Below, in pieces: positions 30,202-43,724 of a stretch of DNA of 64,000 bases (the first letter of the stretch is position 1; every line of letters begins with the position of its first letter). Location: the NCBI GenBank assembly GCA_916048055.1, contig CAJZHL010000014.1, forward strand, positions 372,001 to 436,000. The letters are read 5' to 3'. The DNA comes from Pedinophyceae sp. YPF-701. Its lineage: Eukaryota > Chlorophyta > Pedinophyceae. A model generated the notes under the pieces. It did not search any database and was not told where the DNA came from. It saw nothing but the letters and a program-made list of their open reading frames with translations. The position numbers were made by a program, and so were the translations under genes.

Positions 30202-30272
30202 GCGCCCATAGTTCAGTGGTAGAACACCACGTTGTGGCCGTGGAGACCGCGGCTCAATTCCGCGTGGGCGCA
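30202..30272 (+). tRNA. tRNA-His (anticodon GTG)
   Basis: The full cloverleaf is visible: acceptor GCGCCCA pairs with TGGGCGC (30265-30271) and the discriminator is A. The D arm is GTTC/GAAC, the anticodon stem CCACG/CGTGG has loop TTGTGGC (anticodon GTG), and the T stem is CGCGG/CCGCG. The anticodon arm and following bases are the same as in plant nuclear tRNA-His as I recall it. No intron. The base before the gene is C, so the G at -1 needed by histidyl-tRNA synthetase would have to be added after transcription, as is usual in eukaryotes. Confidence 0.95.
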
Positions 30273-35695: not shown

Positions 35696-38600
35696 ATGTA
35701 CGGAGGTCGGGGTCGGCGGGGACCGCGCGAGACCGCCGAGGATCGCTTCAGGCGGCTGGGCGTCGAGGAGAAGACGGAGGTGTTCCGCATCCGCTCGCGC
35801 CTCGACCTGGGCGGCGCGGGCGAGGGGCGCGAGGCCGCGGCGATGGCCGCGATGGCGGAGCTCGCCGAGGTCTTCAAGGACTGGCGGAAGTGCGACGACT
35901 TCAAGTGCGGCGCGATCCAGTACCACGCGCGCGCCCACCCGCAGCACAACTGTCCCCACACACCGCACCGTGCGCCCCCCCACGCACGCCGCGCAGGCTG
36001 GTGATGTCGACGGACGAGGAGCGCATGCTCGGCGGCAGCTTCCTGCCCCGGCGCGACGTGATCGAGCTGTGGCGCCAGAAGACGCGGATGGACGTGGTGT
36101 TTGACCGCGGGAGGTCGAGCTACTACTACAGGGCGCGCGACGAGACGTTCCCGCAGGACCGCAAGGGCGGGAAGCGCAACTGGAACCGCGCGGGCGACAA
36201 GCTCCAGGAGGTGCACGAGGCCGTCGAGATCTACGCGCTCCTGCCGTGCAACGAGTTCGGGGCGCGGACGCGCGCGACGAAGACGCAGTTCCTGGACGTG
36301 TGCGGCGGGCCGGGCGCGTTCACACAGGTGCTGCTGCGGGAGGCGCCGGAGCCGACGTTCGGGTTCGGCATCACGCTCAAGTGGGAGGGCATGAAGAAGG
36401 ACGACCAGTGGTACGAGACGCTGTTCGACCACCCGGCGTTCCAGCCGCTGTTCGGCGCGGACGGCACGGGCGACGTGCTGCGCGCGGACAACGTCGAGAG
36501 CTTCCGGAAGGCCGTCGGGGAGGCCACCTGCGACATCGTCGTGGCCGACGGAGGTGCGCCTGCGTGGCGGTCCGCTCTGACGGAGCCCGGCTCTCGCCGC
36601 CCGTGCCTCACCAATCCCGCGACCTCAAACTCCCGTTCGTGCAGGGTTCGAGATTGGTCGCGACGCCGAGGGGCAGCACATGGAGAACATCCAGGAGCTG
36701 CTGTCGTGCCCGGTGATCCTCGGGGAGGTGCTCATCATGCTGTCTGCGATCAAGGAGGGCGGGAACTTCGTGTGCAAGCTCTTCGACACGCTGTCGCCGC
36801 TGACCGTCTCCCTGCTCTACCTGAGCACGGGGCTCTTCCGCGAGACGCTCATCGTGAAGCCCTTCCGCTCGCGCATCGTCAACTCGGAGCGCTACCTCGT
36901 CTCCAAGGGCTTCCTCGGCCGCAGCAACCCGCTCTTCGCCCCCACGCGCGACATGCTGGCCGCCGTGCACGCCGCCATGGAGCCGCACAAGCTCGCCATG
37001 TCGCCCGGGTCGGTGGTGCCGCTGCGCTGGATGCTCGAGGACGCGGAGTTCACGGCGACCGTCAACGAGATGAACGCGCAGCTCGCGGGGAAGCAGACGC
37101 AGGGGCTGGTCCACGTGATGGACCTGACCTTCCAGCTGCTGTCCGCGGACAGGGTCGACCTGGGGCCGGAGACGGACGCGGTCGAGGCTAAGGACGGCGT
37201 GCTGCCGGAGTACAGCGCCGCGGCGCAGCGCATGATGAAGCTGATGCACCACGCGGAGGGCGAGGCGCTGGGACGCGACGCCAAGCGCGAGGTGCCGCAC
37301 ATCGGGGAGATGGTCGGGCGCGGGCAGACGCACCGCGGGGGGATCGGGCTGTACAGCGGGGCCGGGGCGGGCGCCGCGGCCGCGCGCCCGGGGCTCGGGG
37401 CCCGCCCGAAGCCGGAGCCCGGCGCCGCCGACGTCTACGGCGACGGCGGGCTGCCGCGGGCCGGGCTGGGGTTCCCGAAGGCGGACCCGGAGGCCGACGA
37501 CGCGCACGCAGTGGGGGCCGCGCCGGCGCCGCTCAGGCCCGACGTGGCGGCGCTGTACGGACCGGACGAGGACGAGGCGGGGGGTGCGGGGGCGGCGGCG
37601 GCGCCCCCGGACCCGTTCCTGGAGAAGTACCGGATCCAGAAGGTGCTGGGTGAGGGCACGTACAGCAAGATCCTGCAGGCGCGGAGCCTCGAGGACGGGT
37701 CGGTGGTGGCGCTGAAGATGGTGTCGCTGGATCAGCCGGGGGGGTTCCCGATCACGGGCCTGCGGGAGCTGCGCGTGCTGCAGGAGCTCAACCACCCGAA
37801 CGTGATGCGGGCGCGCGAGGTGCACGCGTCGACGGGCCACGCGCTCGCGGCCGCGCCGGAGGAGGACGGCGACGCCGGCGGCGGGGGGCACAAGGAGACG
37901 TTCACTGGGCGGGACGTGCTGTACCAGGTGCTCGACTTCATGGACAGCGACCTGGAGGGCTGGATCCGGCGGATGCAGCCGACGCTCCCCGAGGTGAAGT
38001 GCATCGTCGGGCAGACGCTGGCGGGGCTGGCGTACCTGCACAGCGTGGGGTGGATGCACCGCGACATCAAGCCGGCGAACGTGCTGATGGACCGGCACGG
38101 GCGCGTGTGCCACGCGGACTTCGGGCTGGCGCGGTTCGTCGGGCGCGACCCCAACGTCCTGCGGTGGATGACCCCGGGGCTGTTTTCCATGTGGTTCCGC
38201 CCGCCCGAGATCCTCCTCGGCGCGCCCAAGTACGGGTACGCCGCGGACGTGTGGGCGGTCGGGTGCATCCTCGGCTTCGCGCTGCGGGGCACCGTCGCGG
38301 AGCCCAAGCACCTCTTCCGCGGCGAGGACGAGCGCGACCAGCTCAGCAAGATCCTCGACCTGACCGGGGAGCTCAGCCTCGAGGACTGGCCCGGGGTCAA
38401 GAGCCTCAGGGGCGCGCAGATGGTGCGCCGCGCAGCCCCGCGCCCCGACGCGCGCCGCCGCCGCCCAGGACTCAAAACCCACGCACGCGCACAACAAACA
38501 ACGCAACGCTTTCCCCCGCCCCCGTCCGTCGCAGATCGAGTCGCGCATCCAGGAGGCCGGGATCCCGGAGTACGCGAAGCTGCGCGCCGCCCTGCCCGCG

Positions 38601-39232
38601 GACACGGACGACGCGGGGTTCGACCTCCTGCGGCAGCTCCTGCAGCTCAACCCGGGGAAGCGCATCACGGCCGCGGCGGCGCTGTCGCACCCGTGGTTCC
38701 AGTCGGAGCCGCTGCCGTGCGCGTCGGGCGAGCTGCGGCAGCTGGCCGCGGGGATGGGCCTGGAGATGGCTGCGCGCGAGGGGGCGCAGCAGGTGGACCT
38801 GACCAGGGGGCGCGGGCCGAAGAAGGCGTTCAAGACGGCCTTCTCCGCGCAGCACTACAAGAAGCAGTACACGGGTGCGTCGCTGGACGGCGGCCCGGTG
38901 TGCGCGCGTGCGCGCGTGGTAGTTGTTGTTGTTGTGGCCGGGTATGATTGTTTGATGGTGTCTCCGCGGACGCTGTGCTCGCAGGGGCGGACCGCCTCAG
39001 CCATCTCAAGCTCAAGAAGGCGGACGTCGCCGCCGAAGAGGACGGCAACGACGCAGACGGCGACGCAGCTCCGGCTGCGGGGGACGGCAACGACGCTGTG
39101 CCAGCCCCGGACGGCGAAGTCGCCGTCAAAAGAGAACCGGAGCACGAGGACGGAGACGGTGACGCCGCGGCGGAGGAGAAACCTCCTGCCGAGGCGTCTC
39201 CTGCACCTGCGGAAGAGAAACCAGCGGTGTGA
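35696..39232 (+). CDS. Fusion of CMTR1-like mRNA cap 2'-O-methyltransferase and CDK7-like kinase
   Basis: Five exons keep phase: 35696-35919, 35997-36553, 36645-38422, 38535-38874, 38985-39232; 1048 residues. Residues ~75-350 are an FtsJ/CMTR1 domain: SAM site FLDVCGGPGAFTQVLL, catalytic Asp in DIVVADGGF (formed across intron 2), Lys in NFVCKLFD, Glu in NSERYLVSKG, and an upstream RQKTRMDVVFD that matches the CMTR1 first-Lys region. After an Ala/Gly/Pro linker, residues ~585-960 are a complete protein kinase: GEGTYSKI loop, VVALK, HRDIKPANVL, DFGLA, and a PITGLRE helix at the CDK PSTAIRE position. DVWAVGCI and LLQLNPGKRITAAAALSHPWF are closest to CDK7. Both domains lie on one 1778-nt exon without a stop, so the fusion does not depend on splicing. 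The tail is acidic. Known: CDK7 phosphorylates Pol II CTD, which recruits capping; CMTR1 makes cap 1. Confidence 0.9.
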
Positions 39233-39774: not shown

Positions 39775-41879
39775 ATGGCATCCGACACGTTCAAGGTGAA
39801 GAAGCCGGTGGCAGCCCCGGGGCTGCAGAGCAGATGGGTGACGTGGATAGCGGTGGTGGCGGTGTTCTGGGCGCTACCGTTCGCGTTCATGCTCGGCCGG
39901 GGCGATATCGGGCTCGCGGGGCGGTACTCCCAGAGTGCGGTGACGCACGTCCATCGGCAAGCAATGCAGGTGCGCAAACCGTCGCCCATAGCCTCGCGAC
40001 ACGCGGTCCAAGATGCGCACCTGGTCGGTCTCTAGCCTGATGTGTCGCTGAGCTGGGAAGGCAGGGTCTGTTGCGTGCGCGCCGGGCGCCGCTCGCCCCC
40101 TCATTCCGAGTGCTCCGTCCCGATCGCGACGTGCTGCGAGCCGAGGCACGGAGCGACGCAACGACACCGCCCGCCGGACGTGATGCAGGGCGAGGAGGAG
40201 GCAACGGATCGCAAGAACGTCGCCCTGGAGGCGGTCAAGGACCCAGACGAGCCCCCCGAGAAGCAGGCGAGCGCCCGTGCCAGCGCGAGCGCGCCATGCC
40301 CGCGTGCGCAGAGCCCCGCGCCGGCGCGGGCTGATGCTGACCCACGCGCCCAGATATGCGTTCGCGCGGCGCCGTCCTCCAGCTGGTGCGCGTGCGGGGC
40401 TCACTGGCCGCGGCCAGCACGGGCTCCCGCTCTCCCGGGGTCGTCGAGACCGGCTCTGTGCCCGATTGCGACGCAGATGTGGCTGGGCCGGGAGGACCTG
40501 GACGACCAGATCGAGGAGCGCGCCAAGGAGATCATGGAGAAGGGAATCGAGGGATACTATCTTTCGGGTCAACGCAAGAACCCCTGCTGGTTCCTCCAGC
40601 TCGTCCTCGACGACATGAACCGCGACACCGGCGTCGTCGCCATGTCCTCGCCATTCGAGGACGCCTTCTACGACCGCGCCATGTGCACAGGCGCGCAACA
40701 CCCCCCCCCCCCGCCTCGCACCCTCCCCCAGCGTCCTGCAATGTGCACGGCCGCGCACCGCAGCCCCGCGGCACGTCGCCGCCCGCGGCGCCCCCGCGCC
40801 CACCTCGCCTCTGCCCGCGCCGCGTCCGCAGGCTTCTGGTGGGAGCTCAAGAAGCGCGGCGTGATCATGATCGGCGTGTCATCCTACGAGGAGTGGCCGG
40901 GCGAGATCGTCAACCCCTACGACTCGCGGTTCGTGCGCGAGGACCTCTGGGAGGTCGCGTCCGCCATGGAGGGCTGGCTGCACATGTTCCGGTGAGCGCC
41001 GGCCCCGACGTCGCACCGCAACGCGTGTGGCCCGCTCCCCCTCTCGTGCTCGCGTGACCGGCCTGTAGGCGCGCGGCCGCGACGCCAGGGCGGGCGTCCG
41101 CGCGCCCCGTCGGTCCCCTCCTCCGCCCTCACCTCGCGCCCCGTGCGGTGTTCGGCGCGCGCAGGCCGGAGCTGAAGCCGTGGCTGCCGCAGGGTGTGCC
41201 GCGGATCCTGATGTCCGAGTCCGACTTCGTGCACTCGGAGTGGGACGGGCTGCGGCCCGGGGCCTTCAACGTGGAGTACGACATGGTGTACGTCAACCGC
41301 GTCGCGGGCGCGGACTGGAACGTTTGGAACCGCAACTGGACGCTGGCGCAGGAGTCGTTCGTGCGGCTCATCAACGAGGCGGACTTCAAGATCGCGTCGA
41401 TCGACCGGCCGCTGGACCAGGAGCACATGGACCGGATCCGCGAGGACCGGCGCGACAACTACCACGTGATCGGGGACCTGGCGTGGGGGGACTGGCTGGG
41501 CTTCATCCAGAAGTGCCGCATGCTCTTCGTGCCCAACGTGCACGACGCGTCGCCGCGCGTGATCACCGAGGCCATGTCCGTCAACCGCCCCGTGCTCATG
41601 AACTGGTACATCGTCGGCGGGTGGAAGTACATCGAAGAGTCCACGGGGGAGTTCTTCTACGACGAAGACGACGTGGTCGCCGCGGCCACGCGCCTCAAGG
41701 AGCGCTTCGAGGCCGGGAAGACCAACCCGCGGAGGTACGTCGAGGAGAACATCGGGTACCGCCGCAGCGGCGCGCGCCTGCGCGCCTTCCTGGAGCTCGC
41801 CGTGGGGCCCGAGAGGCTCAAGAACGCGAAACGCGACGCCATCAAGCACGGCCTGCGACCCATGGGCACCGCCGACTAG
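39775..41879 (+). CDS. GT-B-fold glycosyltransferase (GT4-like), type II membrane protein
   Basis: Proposed exons: 39775-39969, 40189-40266, 40477-40690, 40832-40991, 41165-41879; 453 residues. A short cytosolic tail and one span (WVTWIAVVAVFWALPFAFML) fit a Golgi signal anchor. The body has GFWWELKKRGVIMIGVSSYE, PGEIVNPYDSRF, ILMSESDFVHSEW and then MLFVPNVHDASPRVITEAM, which resembles the donor-sugar binding region of GT4-like enzymes, with PVLMNWYIVGGWKYI after it. Family known to me only as uncharacterised proteins in algae and fungi; sugar and acceptor unknown. Two introns need GC donors (40267 and 40691) to keep the frame. The small second exon (GEEEATDRKN...) is chosen by composition and phase and could be skipped in frame. 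Confidence 0.82.
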
Positions 41880-41983: not shown

Positions 41984-43724
41984 CTATCCCACCGCGCCCT
42001 CCTCGCGCGACACCCCCACCAGCCCGCGCAGCCGCGCCGCGGTTTTCGACCCCCGCTCCCTGCTCGACGACGACGACGCGCGGCCCGTGGCCGGGCTCCG
42101 CGGCGGCGATCGGCGGCCGGTGCCGGGCCTCCCCGGCGGCGCAGCGACCGCCGGGAGGGGTCCGGCCGCGCCGCCCGCCCTCCGCGCCCCGCCCCGCCCC
42201 TCGAGGAGGTCCTTTCGCTCCACCTCCTCCAACACCCCCCGCAACGCCCCCGAGTACTCCCGCATCTCCGCCTCCGTCGGCGGCTCCGCGTCCGCCCCCG
42301 CCACGCCCACGTCGTCCATCTCCCCCTCCAAGCACCCCGTCAGCCACTCCACGTCCTCCTGCAGCGCCTCCTGCTCCGCCGCAAACAACGCCGACAGCTG
42401 ACGCGACACCCCCGGGTCCTGGAGCATGCTCGCGAACCGCAGCCGGTCCCCCATGGCCTGCACCGCCTCCTGCAGGCCCTGCGCGCCCGTCGACGCCGTC
42501 GACGGCCGGCTGCTGCCGTCCACCACCAGCACGTCGGCGCCGCTGCTCCCGCGCACCGCCCCCGCGGCCGCCCGCGTGCCGCTCCCGGCGGACCGCAGCC
42601 GCCCGTGCTCGTCCGGAAAGCACCCGGCCGACCCCGGCCGCGCCGCGGTGCTCGGGCGCCCCCCCGAGGACGCCCCAGTGCCCGGACGCACGCCGTCCGA
42701 GGTGGACGGGTGGCTGCCTGGCCGCGAGGTGACGTGGCGGTACACGTTGCGGTGCCGGGCGTTCTCCAGCGAGAGTGCACGGGCCAGCGCGGGGTCCGAG
42801 GCGACGGCGCCGGGCGGCGGGAGGCCGCCAGCACTGGCGCGGAGCGCGGTCGGTGGTGGGGGGCCGCGCGGGGGGAGTCCCGGCGGGGTCGCGGGCGGGA
42901 CGGGCGCGAACGCCTGCGTGTTGGGCGGGGAGAGCGCCGCGCTGCCGCCGACGCGCGTCGCGACCGCCGCGATCAGCATGCGCAGTTCCGTCTCCACGAG
43001 GTCACGCGCGGGGCTGTGGAGGATGATGTTCTTGCGCGCCGCGGCGGTCTCGGTGCGCAGACGCACCTGTACGAGGGAGTCGGGGGCGGTCTGGGTGGGG
43101 GCGGGTGCGGAGGGAGCTCGAGGCAGCGGGGGTGGATGCGGGGCGCTCACCTCGCCGATGATCTCCGCGAGGGCGCTCGCTTCGTCGAAGAGCGACTTGT
43201 TGGCTTCAATGCGCGCAGTGCCGATCGCTCGCCGGACCTGCGCGTCGGGAACGCGGGCGTTGTCGACGTGAGTTGCAGGTGGCGCTCTGCACGCTGCGAC
43301 GCGCGGCTGCGTGCCTGGCGGGACGGGCCCTCGGCGGCGCGGCGAGACGGCGACGGTTGTGGCCCGGTGCGCTCGTCGCGCCGGCGGCTGGTCGGTGGCG
43401 CGAGCACGAGCGGCATCAGCGCCAGTGCGCTGAGAGCAGAGGAGCCGCGTGCCCGCCCGGAGCCAGCGGAGGGCCGAGAGGGCGGTGGAGTCAGCGCTCG
43501 GGCGGAGATGGTTCGCGTGAGCGCGCTGGGAGGGCGCGGGAGCGTTCGCAAGCGTCTGGCCAGCCGCGGGCGGTCGCTTCTTCTCAACAAGGGGAGCTTC
43601 GGCGCGAGCGTCTCACCTCGTCGTGCTCAGCCTCCGGGATGCTCCTGGAGATGTAGTCCCACAGCAGAGAGCGCACAACACGCAGCTCGTTCGCTGGCTG
43701 CACCACTGCCGCGGGTGCGGCCAT
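41984..43724 (-). CDS. CCDC24: CCDC24-like coiled-coil protein
   Basis: Three exons in phase 0: 43724-43617, 43237-43151, 43066-41984; 425 residues. The N terminus LLWDYISRSIPEAEHDE joined to VRRAIGTARIEANKSLFDEA matches the first helices of animal CCDC24. ARDLVETELRMLIA matches its second conserved block. AMGDRLRFASMLQDPGVSRQ with the long helix AAEQEALQEDVEWLTGCLEG matches the third. Between them lie Pro/Ser/Gly-rich linkers and a basic, Ser-rich tail. The molecular role is not established; CCDC24 is a candidate in centrosome/cilium lists (uncertain memory). Divergent from the OTU1 gene, with 512 bp between the two starts. Confidence 0.78.

Follow-up and report, generated by a model that had tools for sequence, protein, structure and literature searches.

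A predicted fusion of a CMTR1-type cap methyltransferase and a CDK-type kinase in Pedinophyceae sp. YPF-701

The gene described here lies in a window of 64,000 nucleotides (C14:372001-436000), the whole stretch of DNA that was analysed, and its source assembly of 27.9 Mb in 32 contigs was searched alongside it. The predicted product (Table 1) combines in the same spliced frame an FtsJ methyltransferase domain (residues 138-350, Pfam E 1.5e-23) and a protein kinase domain (Pkinase, residues 589-908, Pfam E 9.3e-45), the latter overlapped by a weaker tyrosine-kinase Pfam model. All four introns are GT-AG and measure 77-112 nt each. Exon 3 codes for K305 (36776) and E342 (36887) of the methyltransferase as well as for the kinase N-lobe and most of its C-lobe. 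The N-terminal extension encoded by exon 1 has no Pfam domain above cut-off, none was found in residues 916-1048, and neither a WW domain nor any other Pfam domain exceeded the cut-off in the N-terminus, the linker or the tail.

Table 1. Predicted features of the fusion gene, in positions of the window.
Feature	Position	Strand	Details
Gene model	35696-39232	+	five predicted exons, 1,048 codons, stop at 39232
Exon 1 (predicted), N-terminal extension	35696..35919	+	GT donor, joins exon 2 in frame
Exon 2, first methyltransferase part: K143 (36199), D259 (36547), SAM motif (36295)	35997..36553	+
Exon 3, 1,778 nt: second methyltransferase part, linker, kinase to residue 853	36645..38422	+	no in-frame stop
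Linker, residues 416-582	37109..37609	+	coding, in frame with both domains
Degenerate G-patch-like stretch (putative), residues 439-496	37178..37351	+	likeness to human CMTR1 G-patch region
CDK-type kinase domain, residues 589-908	37628..38699	+	spans exons 3 and 4
Exon 4, kinase C-lobe end and tail start	38535..38874	+	phmmer CDK alignments reach exon 4 residues
Exon 5, acidic C-terminal tail and stop codon	38985..39232	+

Elsewhere in the window, an open frame of 542 aa on the reverse strand (41987-43612) matches CCDC24 (Pfam E 1.2e-11), and another on the forward strand (41058-41876) has weak similarity to glycosyltransferase group 1, below the Pfam cut-off. Apart from a tRNA-His (GTG) at 30202-30272 on the forward strand, no Rfam match in the window exceeds the gathering score.

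An earlier, sequence-only reading of this DNA had placed both domains, the kinase complete, on one exon of 1,778 nt. What stands is the single spliced frame, with 1,778 nt free of in-frame stops; the domains themselves extend beyond that exon, since FtsJ residues 138-260, including K143 and D259, fall in exon 2 and kinase residues 854-908 in exon 4. An open frame alone is weak evidence here because GC is high (68-75% across four consecutive 1-kb blocks, 35-39 kb of the window) and because an antisense ORF of 748 aa, which overlaps the fusion gene and is without Pfam matches at E<=0.01, is open as well. The stop-free exon 3 together with its codon composition is stronger evidence. When exon 3 is divided into twelve 150-nt blocks, the last of which extends 24 nt beyond the exon, every block has a GC3 of 0.94-1.00, alike over methyltransferase, linker and kinase. 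Within the linker (37190-37609), the third position is G or C in 136 of 140 codons, whereas GC in the four introns is 72% (binomial P 3e-15), and a bias equally strong at some position class is reached by 33 of 606 same-size segments across the 64 kb. With both domains far above cut-off and a coding bias in the linker, the fusion does not appear to be a product of chance, and we consider it very likely that the CMTR1-type methyltransferase and the CDK-type kinase are predicted parts of one fused protein.

In the PDB, the methyltransferase part matches human CMTR1 best (E 4e-35 over query residues 109-415, with a further CMTR1 match at 2e-34); viral EP424R follows at 5.9e-10, the best tRNA 2'-O-methyltransferase at 7.6e-5 and SPB1 at 0.0042. 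By these comparisons the enzyme is closer to CMTR1 than to the FtsJ enzymes of rRNA and tRNA. K143, D259, K305 and E342 align with K-D-K-E of human CMTR1, which we take to be the human catalytic tetrad, and the claim that the CMTR1-like domain keeps its catalytic residues is thereby borne out. The likeness to the human protein includes 38% identity over a 221-aa core and the EN and NSERY motifs, and homology continues beyond the core to residue 415; unlike human CMTR1, the protein has no detected N-terminal G-patch or WW domain, and its C-terminal side consists instead of a linker with degenerate G-patch likeness and a CDK. By its domain, the K-D-K-E residues and its closeness to CMTR1, it is of the CMTR1-type cap 2'-O-methyltransferase kind, and it would be expected to methylate N1 of capped mRNA.

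Residues 439-496 align to the human CMTR1 G-patch region with a Smith-Waterman score of 55, against 25.6 +/- 4.4 for shuffled linkers. That score was attained by none of 5,000 linker shuffles and by one of 5,000 shuffles of the human piece, while for the four remaining parts of the protein the scores against the same region are 21-33. The Pfam G-patch model has no match in the linker, and the phmmer domain score for the stretch, 3.1 bits, is not significant alone. In our reading, residues 439-496 are a degenerate G-patch that follows the methyltransferase, which supports the assignment of the linker to the methyltransferase side. Since the stretch is without some of the consensus glycines, helicase binding would be doubtful.

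When phmmer aligns the protein with the complete CMTR1 chain of 835 aa, the match ends at query residue 415, equivalent to chain residue 511, so that by sequence alignment it stops ahead of the GTase-like domain. In human CMTR1, the GTase-like domain occupies residues 560-729 and the WW domain mediates binding to the Ser5-phosphorylated CTD, according to PMC6071836, and it is through the GTase-like domain that CMTR1 is anchored to the Pol II stalk, as described in PMC11139899. The kinase appears to sit at the Pol II-docking end of CMTR1 (GTase-like plus WW), a region that is undetectable here by sequence.

No other CMTR1-type gene was found in the assembly by a six-frame, exon-by-exon search that scored the best candidates only, a result that answers the suggestion of a separate CMTR1 elsewhere in the genome. 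The methyltransferase part gave five genomic matches at E<=1, three of which are its own exons; because the remaining two read as TRM7-like (on C8) and CMTR2-like (C5:239418), the fusion is the only CMTR1-type enzyme found. The C5 gene, whose best PDB match is CMTR1 (1.7e-14) with no CMTR2 among the matches listed, is presumably CMTR2-like, a label given on the basis of its motifs and of a further methyltransferase stretch, degenerate in sequence, that lies downstream. In this gene (C5:235500-244500), whose one-gene structure is putative, a canonical G-patch (C5:238201-238311, E 4.5e-9) also seems to separate the catalytic methyltransferase stretch from the degenerate one. The genome has 13 FtsJ matches, two of them from the fusion gene; by reading, others are SPB1-like (C13), TRM7-like (C8, two matches), MRM2-like (C12, two matches), TlyA-like (C10) and CMTR2-like (C5:239439), and those at C5:1082757, C4 (two matches) and C30 carry no label. 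Viral contigs yielded no relative, whether the query was the single protein or a two-sequence alignment. Among prokaryote genomes, five loci, all titled archaeal, have 29-32% identity to part of the CMTR1-type core, and four of these five contigs are titled Thermoplasmata, Thermoplasmatales or Thermoplasmatota.

The kinase keeps K618, E635, the HRD aspartate D734, the DFG aspartate D752 and the T-loop threonine T770, and its cyclin-binding helix reads PITGLRE (residues 629-635), which is PSTAIRE-like. Its P-loop is GEGTYS, with the third glycine changed to serine, and relative to the organism's own CDK11-like kinase it has inserts of 5 residues in the C-lobe and about 23 residues in the N-lobe. 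A structure model of the exon-3 part of the kinase predicts a high-confidence CDK fold that matches active cyclin-bound CDKs, and CDK2 is among the top matches by both sequence and fold. By fold, catalytic residues and PSTAIRE-like helix, we assign the domain to the CDK family and predict that it depends on a cyclin.

The fused kinase groups with CDK9/10/11/12 at 98/98 in a 14-row tree and at 94/98 in a 16-row tree, so that its placement among the transcriptional CDKs, as the sequence-only reading expected, is upheld. The trees are without human CDK8, CDK10 and CDK20 references. Own-genome kinases were drawn from 125 listed matches, of which 12 loci were read, as were seven fetched regions; nine such rows are in the 16-row tree and seven in the 14-row tree, which leaves out partial CDK20-like and MAPK-like rows. 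At the level of subclass, one tree joins the fused kinase to CDK9/12 at 67/58, and the other tree gives no subclass. Because its branch is long (2.01 in the 16-row and 1.98 in the 14-row tree, about 2 changes per column), the subfamily is unsure, and AU tests do not reject a grouping with CDK7 (p 0.193 in the 16-row and 0.147 in the 14-row tree), CDK1/2 (p 0.11) or CDK20 (p 0.227). Besides the 98/98 grouping, the kinase shares a PIT-x-LRE-type cyclin helix with CDK9/CDK12 and CDK10/CDK11, and with CDK9/12 also RPPE and an N-lobe insert at about the same place; it is unlike them in having 36-45% identity to the compared rows, a long branch and a methyltransferase fusion.

The kinase had been proposed to be CDK7-like. 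Although the AU tests do not reject CDK7 (p 0.15-0.19), we set CDK7 identity aside as the best reading because the genome has a separate CDK7-type gene and because the trees group the fused kinase elsewhere. Its helix, moreover, is PITGLRE and not the NRTALRE of CDK7. The separate gene, at C28:1122k, has CDK7 as its best PDB match at 264.7 bits (the best non-CDK7 row reaches 234) and the helix DRTAIRE, and there is no CDK7 among the best 60 of 2,493 PDB matches of the fused kinase.

The organism also has a CDK9/12-type gene (C14:540k), a CDK10/11-type gene whose best PDB match is CDK11B (C16:348k) and a CDK11-like gene (C21:169k). A capping enzyme is encoded at C8:794k and an N7-methyltransferase at C12:528k. 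Four Cyclin_N matches were found in the genome, one of which reads as T/K-like and one as H-like. The Pol II CTD (C26:68.7-69.2k) consists mostly of YSPTSPA repeats, with 30 SPxSP motifs counted. Over C26:68686-69240, almost every repeat has alanine at heptad position 7, and Ser7 is therefore essentially absent from this CTD. Separately, kinase matches with similar scores recur every 6-9 kb on one strand of C6:715568-778410 and may be a tandem array, and the genome holds a gene that reads as CDKB-like and 24 light-harvesting matches, both in keeping with a place in the green lineage.

Pcm1 of fission yeast is a guanine-N7 enzyme and not a 2'-O enzyme, and we know of no fusion in the trypanosome CRK9-CYC12 system. 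These two offer points of comparison. PMC10909489 describes fission yeast Cdk9 as coupling transcription to capping via Pct1 and Pcm1; Cdk9-Pch1/Pcm1 resembles the predicted fusion in that a transcriptional CDK is associated with a cap methyltransferase, and differs from it in that these are separate proteins in a complex. CRK9-CYC12 is alike in that a CDK, paired there with an L-type cyclin, is linked both to RPB1 phosphorylation and to cap4 methylation (PMC4783070), and the title of a work cited in that paper states that CRK9 controls both cap4 methylation and RPB1 phosphorylation. For the FtsJ-Pkinase or CMTR1-CDK architecture itself, no report was found in the open-access literature; the accessible portion of PMC3063783, which places FtsJ among S4 neighbours and describes an spb1_C+FtsJ protein in Arabidopsis, mentions no FtsJ-Pkinase protein. 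What we describe would be a new arrangement of two known families, in one genome, and not a new kind of enzyme.

Based on these observations, we favour, with moderate confidence, a model in which a single protein, the only CMTR1-type enzyme found, carries a kinase grouping with CDK9/10/11/12 in place of the Pol II-docking part and is tethered to transcription. On the simplest reading, the kinase would now do the Pol II docking, and it would probably write the CTD mark. A cyclin of T, K, L or M type would activate the fused kinase, which would then dock on and phosphorylate the CTD (YSPTSPA) or an elongation factor such as Spt5. Once docked, the kinase would keep the methyltransferase in place at the RNA exit while the cap is emerging. 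We propose that, because the methyltransferase would be held at this site, cap-1 formation would track CTD-kinase recruitment, with no separate reader domain needed. That the kinase ties cap-1 formation to transcription by this tethering mechanism is put forward tentatively. The coupling suggested by the sequence-only reading, in which one protein would phosphorylate the CTD and methylate the cap, is likewise an inference. We are more hesitant still to suggest that a writer has taken the place of a CTD reader, such that the same polypeptide would phosphorylate the CTD or Spt5 and make cap 1, with the entire cap-1 supply passing through the fusion. Several points weigh against the model: the kinase is divergent, with its long branch and the serine in its P-loop; the separate CDK7-type and CDK9/12-type genes could do all of the CTD work; and the authors of the CRK9 study suggest, in PMC4783070, that the effect on the CTD is indirect.

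The divergence from known CTD kinases and the retention of those separate genes would also fit an explanation that we regard as unlikely, namely that the two domains are fused but that the main targets of the kinase are its own protein, in cis, or other capping proteins, so that it would switch the methyltransferase on or off according to cell-cycle or nutrient state rather than write the CTD. An analogy exists in CK2, which phosphorylates the P-patch of human CMTR1 and thereby promotes its recruitment to Pol II, according to PMC11290353. However, the whole protein has only four SP/TP sites, two of which are in the methyltransferase part (S311 and S380), and the kinase would replace the Pol II-docking region rather than add to it.

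We consider it improbable that the locus yields two products, a free methyltransferase and a free kinase made by alternative starts, splicing or processing, or that it is an artefact of annotation or assembly. In-frame ATGs at 37232, 37235, 37244 and 37310 of the linker could start a kinase-only product; as the next ATG, at 37718, is already inside the kinase N-lobe, such a product would have to start within or before the G-patch-like stretch, so that even the candidate starts nearest the kinase fall on the methyltransferase side. The frame of exon 3 runs without a stop, and the coding-type GC3 of the linker is unbroken. A misjoin that kept both frame and coding bias within one exon would be unlikely. 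Finally, it is very improbable that the kinase half is a scaffold or neutral passenger with no catalytic role in transcription, for although the branch length, the P-loop and the inserts in both lobes might suggest as much, no catalytic residue has been lost, the T-loop threonine is present and the modelled fold is predicted to be like that of active cyclin-bound CDKs.

Coupling between CTD phosphorylation and capping is known so far from separate proteins that find each other. A natural fusion of a cap-1 enzyme and a transcriptional-type CDK would amount to gene-fusion evidence that the two form one working unit. It would also provide a single purified protein with which the coupling could be measured, in an organism where no second CMTR1 was found that might confuse the genetics. 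If the reading of a reader replaced by a writer is true, cap-1 methylation in this alga would be hard-wired to elongation entry, on the same nascent transcript.
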